Part shown: positions 3-59,039 of the stretch, in pieces
Numbering within the stretch: position 1 is the first letter of the stretch
How the letters are laid out: each line of letters opens with the position of its first letter
DNA from: Caloramator sp. E03
Lineage (GTDB): Bacteria; Bacillota; Clostridia; Clostridiales; Caloramatoraceae
DNA: 64,000 bases
NCBI RefSeq assembly: GCF_006016075.1
Contig: NZ_CP040093.1
Coordinates: forward strand, 1,901,501 to 1,965,500
Reading direction: 5' to 3'
Made by a program: the position numbers and the translations under genes
Notes under the pieces: model-generated
What the model was told of the DNA's origin: nothing
Seen by the model: only the letters and a program-made list of their open reading frames with translations
The model's database searches: none

Positions 3-305
3 AAACGTTATACAGGTGATTATGAACCTTTATATCATAAAAAAGGTCATATACCAAAGGCAATAAATATACCGTGGGAAAAGAGCATTGATGATGAAGG
101 AAAGTTAAAAGATATATACATACTTAGAGAGAATTTTAAAATATTGGAAAACAAAAAGGAGATTATTACTTATTGTGGCTCAGGGATTGAGGCTGCAATA
201 AATTACATTATTCTTGATGAGATAGGATATAATGTAAGGCTTTATGCTGGTAGTATAAGTGATTGGATAAGCTATGAAGAAAATGAACTTATAGAAGGTA
301 AATAA
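3..305 (+). CDS. Sulfurtransferase (rhodanese), C-terminal part
   Basis: The window opens inside this gene, so only the last 100 codons are visible. They form a C-terminal catalytic rhodanese domain. The active-site loop reads CGSGIEA, with the cysteine that carries the persulfide, and is followed by a helix and the LYAGSISDW strand typical of thiosulfate/3-mercaptopyruvate sulfurtransferases. The upstream residues GHIPKAINIPW are the usual entrance of this domain. Such enzymes move sulfane sulfur from thiosulfate or mercaptopyruvate to an acceptor. Whether the protein has the usual inactive N-terminal rhodanese domain cannot be seen. It ends at TAA just before a bidirectional terminator. Confidence 0.85.
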   Translation, partial: KRYTGDYEPLYHKKGHIPKAINIPWEKSIDDEGKLKDIYILRENFKILENKKEIITYCGSGIEAAINYIILDEIGYNVRLYAGSISDWISYEENELIEGK

Positions 306-38915: not shown

Positions 38916-41135
38916 ATGGTTGAAATAGAAGGTACAGTTGTAAGTATTGTATATAGGAATGATGATAATGGATATACTGTAGCAAAGATTAAACATGGGA
39001 AAAATACTGAATCGGTTGTTGGCTATATGCCCTTTTTGAATGAAGGCCAAAGGGCAAGGTTTTTCGGTGAATGGACAATACACCAAACCTTTGGTCAGCA
39101 GCTTAAAGTTGAAAGTTTTGAAGAAATAATGCCTGCTACTTTAGAGGGAGTTGAAAAATACCTTGCAAGTGGTCTTATTCCTGGGGTTGGTCCTGCAACT
39201 GCAAAGAGAATTGTTGAGAAATTTGGAATGGATTCACTTGATATTATTGAAATGAACCCTATGAAGCTTATGGAGATTGAAGGTATTGGAGAGAAGAAGG
39301 CAAAAAGTATTGCAGAGGCCTTTAAAGAGCAAAGAGAGCTAAGGGAAGTTTTAGTTTCCCTTCAAAGCTATGGTATATCTGTAACTTATGGAATTAAAAT
39401 ATATAGAAAATATGGTAAAGATACTTTTAATTTAATAAAAGAAAATCCTTATAGGCTTTGTGATGACATAGATGGTATAGGGTTTAAAACAGCCGATAAA
39501 ATTGCAAGAAACCTTGGTGTTGATTTAAATTCTATTCATAGAGTTATGGCAGGTATAAAATATGTTTTAGCTGGCTGTATTGCAAATGGACATGTATATC
39601 TTCCAAAGCTGACTCTTCTTGATGAATGTGTTGCTCTTTTAAATGTTTCAGTTGAAATAGTTGAAGAAGCGCTTACATCTCTTATAGTTTCCAAACAAGT
39701 TTATATTGATGATATCGAGGGCGAAACAGCAGTTTACTTATCCTCACTTTATTATTCAGAACTTGGAGTGGCAAGGAGGATTATTGAGCTTTCTTTAAAT
39801 AAAGTAAAAGATGATTTTAAGGATGTAGAAGAGGATATAAAAGAATTTGAAAAGGAAAATAATATAGAGTTTGCGATAGAGCAAAAAGAAGCAGTAATAC
39901 AGGCGGTTAAAAATGGGGTTTGTATTATAACTGGAGGCCCTGGGACAGGGAAGACAACAATAATAAAATGTATAATTGAAATTTTCAAGAAAAAGGGAAT
40001 GGAAGTAGTACTTGCTGCACCAACAGGTAGGGCATCAAAGAGGATAACGGAAGCAACAGGCTACGAGGCAAAGACAATACACAGACTTTTAGAGATGGAA
40101 TATGTTATGGGAGAGAATTATCCTGAATTTTCAAGGGATGAGGGTAACCCATTAGAATGTGATGCCGTTATAATAGATGAGGCTTCTATGGTTGATATAC
40201 TTTTGATGAACTCCCTTTTAAAGGCAATGCCTTTAGGATGCAGGCTTATTATGGTTGGAGATGTGGATCAGCTTCCATCTGTAGGCCCAGGCAATGTCTT
40301 AAGGGATATAATAGAAAGTCAAGTACTTAGTGTTGTAAGGCTAAATAAAATATATAGACAGGCTGATGAAAGCCTTATTGCTATAAATGCTCATAGGATA
40401 AACAGTGGTCAAATGCCAATATTAAATGACAGGGAGAAGGATTTTTTCTTTATTCAAGTTGGTAATCCTTCAGACATGGTTGAGGAGATTGTTAGGCTTG
40501 TTGATATAAGACTGCCATCCTTTAAGGAAGGATTTGATCCTATGCGGGATATACAGGTATTATCACCAACGAGAAAGGGAGAGGTTGGCATATATAACTT
40601 AAATATAAAACTTCAGCAGGTTTTAAACCCAAAATCAAGCCAAAAGGCAGAAAAACAGTTTAGAGATTTTATATTTAGAGTTGGAGATAAGGTAATGCAG
40701 ATTAAAAATAACTACAGCTTAAAGTGGCAGAGTATCTCCAATGAAAATGAAACTGGGATGGGAATTTTTAATGGAGATATAGGCTTTATAGAGGAGGTTG
40801 ATAACGAAAATCAAACTCTTACAGTTATATTCGATGATGATAAAAGAGTTGTATATGATTTTACAAATTTAGATGAGCTTGAAATGGCTTATGCAGTAAC
40901 TATACATAAAAGCCAGGGTTGTGAATTTCCTGTGGTTGTAATTCCTGTTTTTTATGGTCCTCCTATGCTTATGACAAGAAATCTTATATATACTGGGGTT
41001 ACCAGGGCCAAAAAGCTTGTTGTATTGGTTGGATTGAGCAGAGCTTTATGTAATATGATAAATAATGATACTATTGCTAAAAGATATACAGGGCTAAAAA
41101 AGAGAATAATTTCTTATGTTAATGTTATAAGATAG
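38916..41135 (+). CDS. recD2: ATP-dependent RecD2-like DNA helicase
   Basis: A 739-residue SF1B helicase. An N-terminal OB-like domain and helix-hairpin-helix repeats (PGVGPATAKRI, EGIGEKKAKSI) precede the motor domains. Walker A is GGPGTGKTT, motif II is IDEASMVD, and the last motifs are TIHKSQGCEF and GVTRAKK. This is the stand-alone RecD2 seen in bacteria without RecBCD, moving 5' to 3' and acting in mismatch repair and fork maintenance. It heads a unit with the ComFA-like and ComFC genes. Confidence 0.94.
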   Translation: MVEIEGTVVSIVYRNDDNGYTVAKIKHGKNTESVVGYMPFLNEGQRARFFGEWTIHQTFGQQLKVESFEEIMPATLEGVEKYLASGLIPGVGPATAKRIVEKFGMDSLDIIEMNPMKLMEIEGIGEKKAKSIAEAFKEQRELREVLVSLQSYGISVTYGIKIYRKYGKDTFNLIKENPYRLCDDIDGIGFKTADKIARNLGVDLNSIHRVMAGIKYVLAGCIANGHVYLPKLTLLDECVALLNVSVEIVEEALTSLIVSKQVYIDDIEGETAVYLSSLYYSELGVARRIIELSLNKVKDDFKDVEEDIKEFEKENNIEFAIEQKEAVIQAVKNGVCIITGGPGTGKTTIIKCIIEIFKKKGMEVVLAAPTGRASKRITEATGYEAKTIHRLLEMEYVMGENYPEFSRDEGNPLECDAVIIDEASMVDILLMNSLLKAMPLGCRLIMVGDVDQLPSVGPGNVLRDIIESQVLSVVRLNKIYRQADESLIAINAHRINSGQMPILNDREKDFFFIQVGNPSDMVEEIVRLVDIRLPSFKEGFDPMRDIQVLSPTRKGEVGIYNLNIKLQQVLNPKSSQKAEKQFRDFIFRVGDKVMQIKNNYSLKWQSISNENETGMGIFNGDIGFIEEVDNENQTLTVIFDDDKRVVYDFTNLDELEMAYAVTIHKSQGCEFPVVVIPVFYGPPMLMTRNLIYTGVTRAKKLVVLVGLSRALCNMINNDTIAKRYTGLKKRIISYVNVIR

Positions 41136-41147
41136 GGTGTGCTATAA

Positions 41148-42785
41148 GTGGATGTGGTTCTTTATAAAGCAAAGCAAAGGGATGGGGGATATATTTATGA
41201 TATGTCTCTTAATCCAAAGGTTGATTTTGTAATATTAAAAGGAACAAGAAAAATAAGATCTTTAACTGTTATTACTCCTAAAATTCCTATTGAAATTGGT
41301 GAAAATATATTAAAAAGAGTATATGGGGCATCAAATATTGTTGGAAAGATTATAGGTTCGCAAGATTTTTTAATAAATAATGCGTTAAAAAAGTTTAATG
41401 TGCCTCAGATAAAGAAAGAAATAGTATCAAAAGAGGTAGTAGATAAAAATTCTATTTCAATAGTTGAACAGTACATAAAAGGTAAAATAATAAGCATAAG
41501 ACAGCTTATAAATTTAAAATCTTATATAAATTCGGATGAAGAAGAGATAATAGATGCAGTACAAGTACTTTATTGCGAGAGAAGAATAAAAATGATACCA
41601 TCTGTTAGAAAAGTTAGGAATAGGATGATTTGTTCCTTTTGTAACAAAGAGCCTTGTAGTATTTGTAGATTTGGCTTTTTAGAAGATGATATACTTTTAT
41701 ATGCTGCTGATAATTATAATTTAAAGAGCGTGAAAAAAGTAATATTAAAAAAGCCTATACTAACAGTATCTTTGAAAAAGGCCTACGATGATTTTAGTCT
41801 ATTTATAAAATCTAAAAAGGAATGGGCAGTATTATGGTGTGTTCCAGGTTCCTTTGATTATGAGGCTATAGTAGGGGGAATAGCAGAAACTATAAAATAT
41901 GGAGGAAGAATTTTGATTGTAACCTCATCCTTTGAAAATTTAAAGGCAGCAGAAGCATTAAGAAAGACTTTAAAAGATATCAATATAAGCTGTACAGCAG
42001 ACAATGGATGGAGTCTTAAGGATGAAGATATAGTTATTCATTCTATAAAAAACTATTCTCCCTTTTATAAAGCCTTTGATCTTGTAATATTTGATAAAAG
42101 GTATGCCTTTTTAGAAGAAAAATTCGAGGATGCAGAGTTGCTTTATAAAAAAGCAGTAAAAGAAAATGGAAAGTTTGCTATTATAACAAGTTTCATACCT
42201 AAGAATAAGCCATTTTTTATAAAGGGAGGATTTGAAATAATCCCCCTTACATCATTAAAAACAAAAAATCCTATTCCTGAGCCAAGAATAGTTTTAACAA
42301 GGTTAATTAACGGAGGAGATTTTTATCTTCCTTCCATGGTAGTAGATATTATAAACTGGTCTATAAAAGAGGAAACAGGAATAATTATATTTGTTCCAGA
42401 TGAGAAGATTCAAGACAAGGTATATAATTATTTAACTTTGTTTGAAAACTTTAACCCTTCCTTATTAGATATTTCATCAGAAAGATATAAACAATCTGTA
42501 TTGAAGTTAAAAAGAAATGAAATAAGAATACTTATATCTTCAGATTTTAAAGATTTGATGAATTTTAATCAAGATATAAATGTAATTGTAGTATGTAGTG
42601 ATGATAAGAGATATGATGTAGAGACCTTAATCAATATGGCATCTATAGCTTCAAGTAGTAAAAATAAAAAGATTGGGGAGGTAGTATTTGTTGCATCCAA
42701 TGAAACAGAAACCATGTCTTTAGCAAAGTCGACAATAAGAAGCATGAACAAAATATCTTGGGAGAGAGGATATATAAGAAGATAG
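41148..42785 (+). CDS. Degenerate ComFA-like protein lacking ATPase motifs
   Basis: A 545-residue protein directly before comFC, the usual place of comFA. A four-cysteine zinc site (C162, C165, C170, C173) lies N-terminal to a two-lobed helicase-like region, as in ComFA. The Walker A site reads CVPGSFDYEA (about 231-240) with no GKT. The DEAD-type Walker B reads VIFDKRYAF (about 313-321) with no DE. The motif VI region reads NMASIASSSKN instead of the arginine-finger QIAGRAGRS pattern. GGDFYLPS and GEVVFVA at matching places keep the family outline. True ComFA drives single-stranded DNA uptake with ATP; this one probably acts as a structural partner of ComFC or of DNA. Starts at GTG; ends 28 nt inside comFC. 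Confidence 0.7.
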   Translation: MDVVLYKAKQRDGGYIYDMSLNPKVDFVILKGTRKIRSLTVITPKIPIEIGENILKRVYGASNIVGKIIGSQDFLINNALKKFNVPQIKKEIVSKEVVDKNSISIVEQYIKGKIISIRQLINLKSYINSDEEEIIDAVQVLYCERRIKMIPSVRKVRNRMICSFCNKEPCSICRFGFLEDDILLYAADNYNLKSVKKVILKKPILTVSLKKAYDDFSLFIKSKKEWAVLWCVPGSFDYEAIVGGIAETIKYGGRILIVTSSFENLKAAEALRKTLKDINISCTADNGWSLKDEDIVIHSIKNYSPFYKAFDLVIFDKRYAFLEEKFEDAELLYKKAVKENGKFAIITSFIPKNKPFFIKGGFEIIPLTSLKTKNPIPEPRIVLTRLINGGDFYLPSMVVDIINWSIKEETGIIIFVPDEKIQDKVYNYLTLFENFNPSLLDISSERYKQSVLKLKRNEIRILISSDFKDLMNFNQDINVIVVCSDDKRYDVETLINMASIASSSKNKKIGEVVFVASNETETMSLAKSTIRSMNKISWERGYIRR

Positions 42786-43480
42786 GATTCTTCATAACCT
42801 GTTTTCTTGATATAATTTTTCCAAAGGCAAGTTACTGTACAGTATGCAAAAGGATACTTATTGATAATAAAAATTTTATATGCTCTGGATGCTTAACACA
42901 AATAAGATTTGCAAATCATCAATGTAGAAGATGTGGGGAGATTATAGATAGCTTTCCTTGTAAAAACTGTTACAGTTTTAAAGGATTTTATGATGAAGTG
43001 TATTCTGTATGTTTGTATGAAGGGTTAGCAAGGGATATGATATTAAGGCTAAAATATAAAGATGACAGGGACATTTCAATAACTATGGCTTATTTAATAT
43101 ATGATATACTATATAAAAATAATGTATGCTATGATTTTATAACTTATGTGCCATCTTCGAAGGTTAGAGATAGAAAAAGAGGATACAATCATTCGAAACT
43201 TATAGCAATAGAGATATCAAATATCACAGGAAAACCTGTCAAGGATATACTTATAAGGATAAAAGATACGAAGCCTCAGGTATTGTTTGATGGTGATGCA
43301 AGATGGTATAATGTAAAGGATGTATTTAAATGTGAAGAGCCTGTAGATAATAAGGTTGTGCTCCTTGTTGATGATGTTGTAACAACGGGAGCAACTGTTA
43401 GCTATTGTGCAAAATCTCTTAAAGAAAAGGGAGCCAAAAAAGTAATAGTAGCTTCCTTTGCTAAATCAACATTATGTTGA
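42758..43480 (+). CDS. comFC: ComFC family phosphoribosyltransferase-like protein
   Basis: About 240 residues. The N-terminal zinc site uses CTVCKR, CSGC, CRRC and CKNC. The phosphoribosyltransferase-like core contains YVPSSKVRDRKRGYNHS and the PRPP-binding loop LLVDDVVTTGAT. ComFC proteins act in DNA uptake with ComFA and in some bacteria in repair or modification of nucleotides. The start is uncertain: TTG 42758 lacks a clear SD, while GAGAGGA at 42763-42769 precedes only non-standard codons, so coupling to the overlapping upstream gene is likely. The raiA-motif RNA begins 3 nt after its stop. Confidence 0.88.
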   Translation: MGERIYKKIGFFITCFLDIIFPKASYCTVCKRILIDNKNFICSGCLTQIRFANHQCRRCGEIIDSFPCKNCYSFKGFYDEVYSVCLYEGLARDMILRLKYKDDRDISITMAYLIYDILYKNNVCYDFITYVPSSKVRDRKRGYNHSKLIAIEISNITGKPVKDILIRIKDTKPQVLFDGDARWYNVKDVFKCEEPVDNKVVLLVDDVVTTGATVSYCAKSLKEKGAKKVIVASFAKSTLC

Positions 43481-43482
43481 AA

Positions 43483-43698
43483 AAACTTAAACTATCAGGT
43501 CTGTGGTTGAAAGTCGATGCCAGCCGCAGGCGAAGCGACCCACGTAAGTCAAACAAAGTTTGATGAGCATGGTGCGGTTTAGAAGTAAGTCCTGCCGGTA
43601 AAACCGAGAGAGGGATTCGTGAAAGGCATACACCTTAAGCAAAACCTCCAGCAGGCGGGTGTGGGGTCAAAGACCAGGTCAGCTGATAGTTTAAGTTT
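43483..43698 (+). ncRNA. raiA RNA: raiA-motif noncoding RNA
   Basis: A G/C-rich island of about 216 nt in very A/T-rich surroundings, without an open frame. Its ends pair perfectly over 16 bp (43483-43498 with 43683-43698). Inside are the conserved-looking segments GAAAGTCGATGCC, GCGACCC, GATGAGCATGGTGCGG, AAGTCCTGCCGG and GGGTGTGGGGTC. Position between comFC and the hpf/raiA gene, length and closing stem fit the raiA-motif RNA of Firmicutes, which has been linked by genetics to sporulation and aggregation in clostridia. It is followed by an intrinsic terminator. It may have its own promoter in the end of comFC or be processed from the recD2-comFC mRNA. Confidence 0.85.
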
Positions 43699-43723
43699 AA
43701 AAAGCCGGATAACCCGGCTTTTT
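43699..43723 (+). terminator. Terminator of the raiA RNA
   Basis: AAAAAGCCGG (43699-43708) with CCGGCTTTTT (43714-43723), short loop, T tract within and after the stem. It begins right after the closing stem of the RNA. Confidence 0.9.
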
Positions 43724-43811
43724 ATTTTATAATTTTTGAATGTAGAATAATTATATTAAATGTGATATTACAAATAATATATTTGTTCGAGTGTATAAAT
43801 ATTTTAAGAGA

Positions 43812-43906: not shown

Positions 43907-44094
43907 ATAGAACGTTTAAGGTTGATACAATATTAATTATGTAAAATTTATATTATTTATTAATAAAAAAATATAAATATTCAATGTCGAAATAAAAGTT
44001 ATACTTGAAGTTATTAGTATAAAATATTAGAATATATATAAAATACAAAATACTTAAGGTATTTCCCTTATTATATATGAAAGGGGTAGATGTT

Positions 44095-44616
44095 ATGAAG
44101 TTTACAATTACAGGCAAGAACATAGCTTTAACGGAGGCTTTAAAGGACACTGTTGAAAGGAAACTTGGAAAGCTTGATAAATATTTTGGTCCTGATGTAG
44201 AAGCCCATGTAACTTTGAGTGTTCAAAAATCTAATCAGAGGATTGAAGTTACTATCCCATTCAATGGAGTGATATTAAGAGGAGAAGAATCAACAGAGGA
44301 CATGTATACATCTATTGACAATGTTGTTGAAAAGCTTGAAAGGCAGATTAGAAAACATAAAACAAGGCTTGAAAGAAAAATTCATGAGGGAACCTTAAGA
44401 TTTGCAGAAATATCCACAGATTATGAAGAGGATGAACCTAAAATTGTGAAGACCAAGAAGTTTGCAATAAAGCCTATGGATGTTGAAGAAGCAGTTATGC
44501 AAATGGATTTAATAGGACATAACTTCTATGTGTTTATGAATTCAGAAACTGACGAGGTAAACGTTGTGTATAAGAGAAAAGATGGAAACTATGGCTTGAT
44601 AGAGCCTGAATTTTAA
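44095..44616 (+). CDS. hpf: Ribosome hibernation-promoting factor, long form
   Basis: A 173-residue long HPF (also called RaiA or YvyD). The N-terminal ribosome-binding domain MKFTITGKNIALTEAL spans about 1-100. After a linker, the C-terminal dimerisation domain (FAIKPMDVEEAVMQMDLIGHNFYVF) pairs two 70S ribosomes into inactive 100S dimers in starvation. The start at 44095 is eight bases after SD AAAGGGG; ATG 44077 lies upstream of that SD. It follows the raiA RNA and DnaA boxes and precedes secA. Confidence 0.94.
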   Translation: MKFTITGKNIALTEALKDTVERKLGKLDKYFGPDVEAHVTLSVQKSNQRIEVTIPFNGVILRGEESTEDMYTSIDNVVEKLERQIRKHKTRLERKIHEGTLRFAEISTDYEEDEPKIVKTKKFAIKPMDVEEAVMQMDLIGHNFYVFMNSETDEVNVVYKRKDGNYGLIEPEF

Positions 44617-58897: not shown

Positions 58898-58918
58898 ATT
58901 TATAAGAGAAATAAATAT

Positions 58919-59029
58919 AATCTTCAGGGCAAGGTGAAATTCCTGACCGGCGGTATAGCCCGCGAGCCGAAAGGTATGATCCGGTGAAACTCCGGAGCCG
59001 ACAGTAAAGTCTGGATGGAAGAAGATAAA
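58919..59029 (+). ncRNA. FMN riboswitch (RFN element)
   Basis: The conserved RFN blocks are all present: AGGGCAAGGTGAAATTCC, GACCGGCGGTATAGCCCGCGAG, CCGGTGAAACTCCGG, GACAGTAAAGTCTGGATGG and closing AGAAGAT pairing with ATCTTC. It binds FMN and lowers expression of the riboflavin transporter gene downstream, here through the terminator at 59040. Confidence 0.96.
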
Positions 59030-59039
59030 ATTGTTATTT

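Follow-up and report, generated by a model that had tools for sequence, protein, structure and literature searches.

The window, the whole 64,000-nucleotide stretch of Caloramator sp. E03 DNA that was analysed, carries on its forward strand a compact series of three genes followed by a structured RNA, a terminator-like hairpin, and the gene for a ribosome hibernation factor. The features that concern us are the following.

38916-41135, forward strand: recD2 helicase gene, first of the compact series (NCBIfam TIGR01448, 915.7 bits against a cut-off of 500)
41148-42785, forward strand: comFA-like gene, aligned with relatives (no Pfam domain above cut-off and no NCBIfam match)
42758-43480, forward strand: comFC (Pfam DZR_2 and Pribosyltran above cut-off)
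43483-43698, forward strand: raiA (ModT) RNA, comprising the Rfam RF03072 match at 43490-43691 plus seven outer P1 pairs
43483-43498, forward strand: 5' strand of the P1 stem, perfect complement of 43683-43698
43519-43531, forward strand: P3 hairpin (GCC/GGC), whose loop holds half of the pseudoknot pk1
43522-43528, forward strand: 5' half of pk1 (AGCCGCA)
43573-43579, forward strand: 3' half of pk1 (UGCGGUU), pairing with 43522-43528
43683-43698, forward strand: 3' strand of the P1 stem, perfect complement of 43483-43498
43698-43724, forward strand: intrinsic terminator hairpin followed by a T-run (terminator-like, with 11 pairs of which 5 are G-C)
44005-44033, forward strand: site resembling a promoter ahead of hpf (TTGAAG-17-TAGAAT, with 9 of 12 consensus bases), of a kind no more frequent here than in shuffles
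44077-44616, forward strand: hpf, the long-form ribosome hibernation factor gene, also called the raiA gene (Pfam PF02482 and PF16321; TIGR00741)

The genes from 38916 to 43480 are tightly packed, with a gap of 12 nt between recD2 and the comFA-like gene and an overlap of 28 nt between the latter and comFC. Against the TIGR00201 (comF) model, comFC scores 108 bits (E 5.3e-31), which is under the curated cut-off of 233.55. Judged against the ComFA motifs, neither the Walker A nor the Walker B motif can be recognised in the comFA-like product (WCVPGSFDY, LVIFDKRYA), and a search of genome contigs confirmed no relatives of it. The relatives in the window's own family (f1), its sister family (f2), and a further family of relatives (f3) look degenerate too, with f2 copies of only ~345 amino acids. 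Among loci with enough upstream sequence, tblastn places recD2, the comFA-like gene, and comFC in the same order in all three families; the gene context that the original prediction had treated as particular to this example is therefore common property. Downstream, the hpf product has S30AE N- and C-terminal domains, and secA is the next gene after hpf. According to published counts, comFC lies upstream of the raiA RNA in 74% of cases, and the raiA gene follows it in 66% (quoted in the available text of PMC11706538).

A cmscan search of the whole window aligned positions 43490-43691 of the forward strand to the full length of RF03072 (model positions 1-209 of 209) with 194.1 bits against a gathering threshold of 101.3 (E 9.8e-50; G+C 0.51). 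The element at 43483-43698 is thus a genuine raiA (ModT) RNA, which is an already known kind of RNA. It is the single raiA match in this genome (2.98 Mb, one contig). The original prediction had assigned the island to this family from its size and its position before hpf, and both the assignment, for which the covariance search did return a match, and the position between comFC (ending at 43480) and hpf (starting at 44077) hold. An FMN riboswitch aptamer is also present in the window, at 58916-59030 (118.4 bits).

For the segment 43481-43735, which comprises the RNA and its terminator, the folding energy is −92.8 kcal/mol (z = −6.38), and none of 200 shuffles was equally stable. For comparative analysis, 44 of the 82 full-length loci fetched were aligned, hand-picked for spread and mostly from f1 and f2. 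A model with P1, P3, the P5 hairpin, P6-P8, and pk1 is paired in 94.9% of cells in these 44 sequences, with double-sided changes in 27 of 50 pairs and a covariation score of 0.409; shuffles gave 0.168, and sliding the model never gave more than 0.104. This covariation in the alignment supports the fold. P3 is paired in 100% of cells and shows double changes in two of its three pairs. The seven pairs of pk1 (43522-43528 with 43573-43579) form in 97.7% of cells, consistent with the pseudoknots that the original prediction had proposed to look for among clostridial copies. Support for pk1 from covariation is modest, because the changes are mainly G-C/G-U exchanges with one true double change. The pairing corresponds to the 7-bp pseudoknot in the cryo-EM structure of the Clostridium acetobutylicum RNA (available text of PMC11751092). 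The raiA family is further expected to form a second pseudoknot, pk2, of two pairs. The raiA core, including pk1, is equally conserved in the window's family and in families whose raiA has its own promoter. Another helix drawn initially, 43539-43541 with 43570-43572, is paired in 62.9% of cells and its third pair never forms; it is probably wrong.

A phylum sample of 398 genomes, 48 with and 350 without a raiA match, was used to examine the wider distribution, with Spo0A_C and zf_Tbcl counts tallied by eye. Spo0A_C showed no association, being present in 41 of 48 raiA genomes and 306 of 350 others (Fisher p 0.65). The sample therefore does not support the idea that raiA is kept for the sake of sporulation. 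The result agrees with the remark in the available text of PMC11706538 that many non-spore-formers carry the RNA. The zinc-finger gene zf_Tbcl (PF13451) follows raiA in several families, and it was rejected as an obligate partner of the RNA, being present in 34 of the 48 genomes with raiA and in 225 of the 350 without (p 0.42). The idea of a mobile raiA was not borne out either. No exact match to a 20-base raiA core was found in viral contigs, and distant blastn found no raiA in phages. Among plasmids the core matched once, in a 2.63-Mb Acetoanaerobium noterae record (NZ_CP154629.1) that resembles a chromosome filed as a plasmid.

In families f47 and f92 the phylum search also returned 13 short matches, 113-120 nt long, whose scores of 39-59 bits fall under the cut-off. 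A pattern search likewise gave 13 loci of this miniature form, 7 of them apparently on contigs of the phylum-search matches, in Thermosediminibacter, Tepidanaerobacter, Fervidicola, Thermovorax, and metagenome-assembled genomes.

L079-L091, L134-L136, and L138-L140, with L133:5664-5776 on the reverse strand as an example: mini-raiA loci, below the Rfam cut-off

In 19 aligned sequences, mini-raiA keeps P1, P3, and the joining segments and lacks the P6-P8 domain. A GCCG/CGGC pairing that resembles pk1 is in register in 17 of the 19, and two pairs of a short helix that precedes the 3' strand have eight and seven double changes. Six loci scanned against Rfam gave only sub-threshold raiA. The miniature form marks the part of the RNA that is retained when most of it is lost. 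A zf_Tbcl zinc-finger gene was seen after mini-raiA in f47 and f92.

The window's RNA is closed by the P1 stem. P1 comprises 16 perfect base pairs, of which 9 lie within the Rfam model and 7 outside it, and it begins at 43483, 3 nt beyond the comFC stop codon (TGA, 43478-43480) with 2 nt between. The perfect 16-bp pairing of the island's ends (43483-43498 with 43683-43698), its start 3 nt after comFC, and the intrinsic terminator behind it, represented by the terminator-like hairpin and T-run at 43698-43724, had all been noted in the original prediction, and all were recovered.

The 60 nt upstream of P1 were scanned with a TTGACA/TATAAT-type score that was compared with shuffles, leaving out 3 of 96 loci with short or N-filled upstream sequence (L068, L071, and L095). 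In the sister family, all 33 loci carry TTGAC together with TATAAT (31 loci) or TAAAAT (2 loci) at a spacing of 16 or 18 nt, and every one of these predicted promoters beats its shuffles at p ≤ 0.01 (median score 11.4). The TTGAC element sits in the comFC reading frame, where it falls on Leu-Thr codons, and in every one of the 33 loci the −10 box shares bases with the stop codon of comFC. The embedded promoter can be seen within the last ~35 nt of comFC in L005, L021, and L045, for example. Both f3 loci also have a promoter at p ≤ 0.05. Among the 79 scanned loci outside the window's family, the best match contains an exact TATAAT in 67 and reaches p ≤ 0.05 in 51, a count made with a TTGACA-based score that undervalues the TTGCWT type common in these families.

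Eight f2 genomes that are 98-100% complete (genera g9, g13, and g15, and one from g11) have no raiA match and keep comFC, and their sister genera carry raiA. None of the eight retains both exact TTGAC and exact TATAAT, and four still score at p ≤ 0.05 in the same place (7.7-10.5). These values suggest that the exact hexamers go with raiA and that decay after its loss is partial, which makes the genomes a weaker natural experiment than hoped. The linkage of comFC and raiA, often taken as a functional hint, has a mechanical cause in the sister family, namely the embedded promoter. No description of a comFC-embedded raiA promoter, or of the arrangement in the window's family, was found in the available texts of the literature searched.

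The window's family lacks this element. None of its 14 loci has a near promoter at p ≤ 0.05 (median score 3.65; lowest p 0.06, in L039), and the comFC end contains TATAAT in 0 of 14 and TTGAC in 1 of 14. At the window locus itself the scan gave a score of 4.0 (p 0.348), and no SigA-type promoter was found just upstream of P1. Alignment in the comFC codon register identifies the positions homologous to the f2 promoter boxes.

43451-43456, forward strand: GCTTCC, at the position of the f2 −35 box
43473-43478, forward strand: TATGTT, at the position of the f2 −10 box, with 4 of 6 consensus bases

Weaker promoter-like sites lie inside the window's comFC, for example at 43223-43251. A fifteenth locus of the family, G015, is cut by a contig end and reaches p 0.035 with TTGACC-17-TGGCAT, the '−10' of which falls within raiA; L039 shares this site. 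G015 is also one of three assemblies of the family without an initial raiA match. Because its copy is cut and comFC was not found in the other two either, no real absence of raiA in the family has been demonstrated. The 14 loci span eight genera and probably record one evolutionary event.

Several controls bear on whether the scan would recognise promoters in these organisms. The window's genome holds 39 copies of TTGACA-16..18-TATAAT, compared to 12 of the reversed control pattern, which indicates that this genome does use the consensus, and none of these occurrences lies within C1:1832896-C1:2083736, the stretch that contains the whole window. In the family, 7 of 12 SRP RNA loci have TATAAT with a TTGAC(A/C) or TTGAAT −35 element within 150 nt, mostly preceding an upstream tRNA, and among 12 tmRNA loci a clear near site is present only in L116 and perhaps L117. 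The SRP RNA and tmRNA of the window's genome have no consensus match within 150 nt (scores 5.5 and 4.7), and for this reason these genes are poor positive controls. The genome-wide pattern count is the better one.

At least seven extra outer pairs of P1, with single mismatches and bulges allowed, are found in 14 of 14 loci of the window's family. Extensions of that length, though low-scoring, also occur in 12 of 33 f2 loci and in 17 of 46 loci elsewhere. A permutation test compared flanks of one locus with flanks drawn from different loci of the family. Same-locus flanks scored 9.29 against 4.31 for permuted flanks (sd 0.79), and none of 5000 permutations reached the same-locus score. The difference is minor in f2 (2.70 compared to 2.06, with 55 of 5000 permutations as high), and it is not significant in f33, f47, f49, and f92. 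The comparison indicates that P1 in the window's family is lengthened outward as matched partners. In addition, a T-run (6 of 8) occurs at most ~20 nt past the model end in 10 of 14 of these loci, compared to 7 of 33 in f2 and 4 of 46 elsewhere. Most of the T-runs in the family directly continue the extended P1, and P1 itself could therefore serve as the terminator stem. In the window's genus (L001 and L033), the extension is A/U-rich and a separate hairpin comes afterwards; the distant locus L075 (f125) has both a T-run and an extension. The end of comFC lies 7-40 nt upstream of the model start in 13 of the 14 loci, and in G005 its stop codon falls within P1.

The original prediction had raised the possibility that this RNA is released from the mRNA of the recD2-comFA-like-comFC unit. 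That proposal gains comparative, if indirect, support because the near promoter is lacking in the window's family (0 of 14 loci against 33 of 33 in f2), the P1 extension is matched, the G005 stop codon lies inside P1, and the genes at 38916-43480 are closely spaced; these observations suggest that raiA is probably excised from the comFC messenger in this family. We somewhat favour a model in which raiA is the tail of this message and is cut free by way of its long P1 stalk. The transcript would run on from the three genes through raiA and would halt at the intrinsic terminator after it. The extended P1 would close the RNA right behind comFC, forming the base of the excised particle. It might offer a double-stranded stalk at which the 5' cut is made, and it might also shield the 3' end. 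Cleavage at or within the long P1, perhaps by an RNase III-like nuclease, would yield a compact, pseudoknotted, trans-acting RNA of ~216 nt (~245 nt with the terminator). By analogy with published work on other species, this product might serve as a trans-acting growth-transition RNA. One might speculate that translation could delay closure of the RNA, given that a ribosome finishing comFC would sit over the 5' strand of P1.

Several observations count against release and bear on whether raiA is instead transcribed on its own, either from a diverged homologous promoter (GCTTCC-16-TATGTT) or from within comFC, with the long P1 aiding termination or stability. TATGTT occupies the f2 −10 position with four of six consensus bases and recurs in G002 from the same genus, weaker sites exist in comFC, and G015 and L039 share a site with p values of 0.035 and 0.06. 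Upstream windows of 300-700 nt hold better, if unremarkable, sites in several loci of the family, such as TTGCTA-18-TATAAT 171 nt upstream in four g3 genomes, and the Clostridioides difficile RNA uses an intergenic SigA promoter (available text of PMC11706538). By count alone, moreover, 12 of 33 f2 loci likewise have at least seven outer pairs, and release would make an RNA that is very abundant elsewhere dependent on the strength of a messenger. We nevertheless regard self-transcription as doubtful, since none of the 14 loci has, within the 60 nt ahead of raiA, a site that outscores shuffles at p 0.05, a start within comFC would still require a 5' cut, and the matched extension of P1 would be left unexplained. 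A further possibility, that in this family the structure chiefly protects or terminates the comFC mRNA at its 3' end and has no life as a free RNA, is improbable. Its flush position behind comFC and the T-rich run within ~20 nt after P1 in 10 of 14 loci fit such a role, but the entire raiA core, pk1 with it, shows the same conservation as in promoter-bearing families, and orthologues are reported to work in trans as free RNAs (available text of PMC11706538).

The RNA precedes hpf on the same strand, and RF03072 carries the Rfam type 'Cis-reg; riboswitch', which together invite the view that hpf is controlled in cis, with the RNA as its riboswitch or attenuator. This view was rejected as highly improbable given the terminator-like hairpin, the distance, and the different neighbours elsewhere. 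An expression platform would be expected next to the regulated gene, and in the window the hairpin and a further 352 nt lie between the RNA and hpf; raiA directly precedes a zf_Tbcl gene instead in f33, f38, f47, f92, and f113; and the published phenotypes were complemented in trans (available text of PMC11706538).

If raiA is released from the messenger in the window's family, its history there might be one of capture, in which the promoter at the comFC stop codon decayed and the RNA came to be excised through a lineage-specific P1 extension whose stem also serves as the terminator in most members. We consider the chances of this scenario to be evenly balanced. Were it true, the level of a growth-transition RNA would be tied to an operon for DNA repair and DNA uptake. 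The window's family offers a natural case without the f2 promoter, and comparison of the two families makes both processing and the role of P1 testable.

A precedent might exist in the same genome. Its tmRNA has a perfect TTGACA-TATAAT ~500 nt upstream and no consensus within 150 nt, which suggests that the genome may make tmRNA by the same route; the gene between the distant promoter and tmRNA is presumably smpB. The tmRNA L109 (G000:C1:2879656-2880006) starts a few nt past the apparent end of a coding gene.

Ribosomal RNAs with their processing stalks, and tmRNA behind smpB, are RNAs excised from longer transcripts by way of a long closing stem. As in those systems, a helix made of both flanks closes the mature core of the window's raiA inside a presumed longer transcript; the window differs in having a single RNA behind a coding gene, with a putative cut.

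The raiA/ModT RNA is very abundant and widely conserved among bacteria. C. difficile mutants that lack ModT, the trans-acting raiA RNA of this species, are late in passing to stationary phase, sporulate less, and have more c-di-GMP (available text of PMC11706538). The original prediction, which linked the RNA to sporulation and aggregation and stated that no mechanism was known, is partly out of date on the latter point, given this reported trans role in growth transition and c-di-GMP level. ModT is transcribed from one intergenic SigA promoter and is followed by a PTS operon (same source), whereas the window has only 2 nt from comFC to P1, no such promoter found, and hpf downstream; the two share the RNA family, a comFC-like gene upstream, and a terminator behind the RNA. 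The C. acetobutylicum example of RF03072, represented by cryo-EM entries 9CXF and 9ELY (available texts of PMC11751092 and PMC12286853), is distinguished from the window's RNA by the latter's P1, which is seven pairs longer and reaches up to comFC, and by the lack of a consensus promoter found in front of the latter. In all other respects compared, namely the full model match, the P1-P3-pk1 core, comFC upstream, and hpf downstream, the two are alike.
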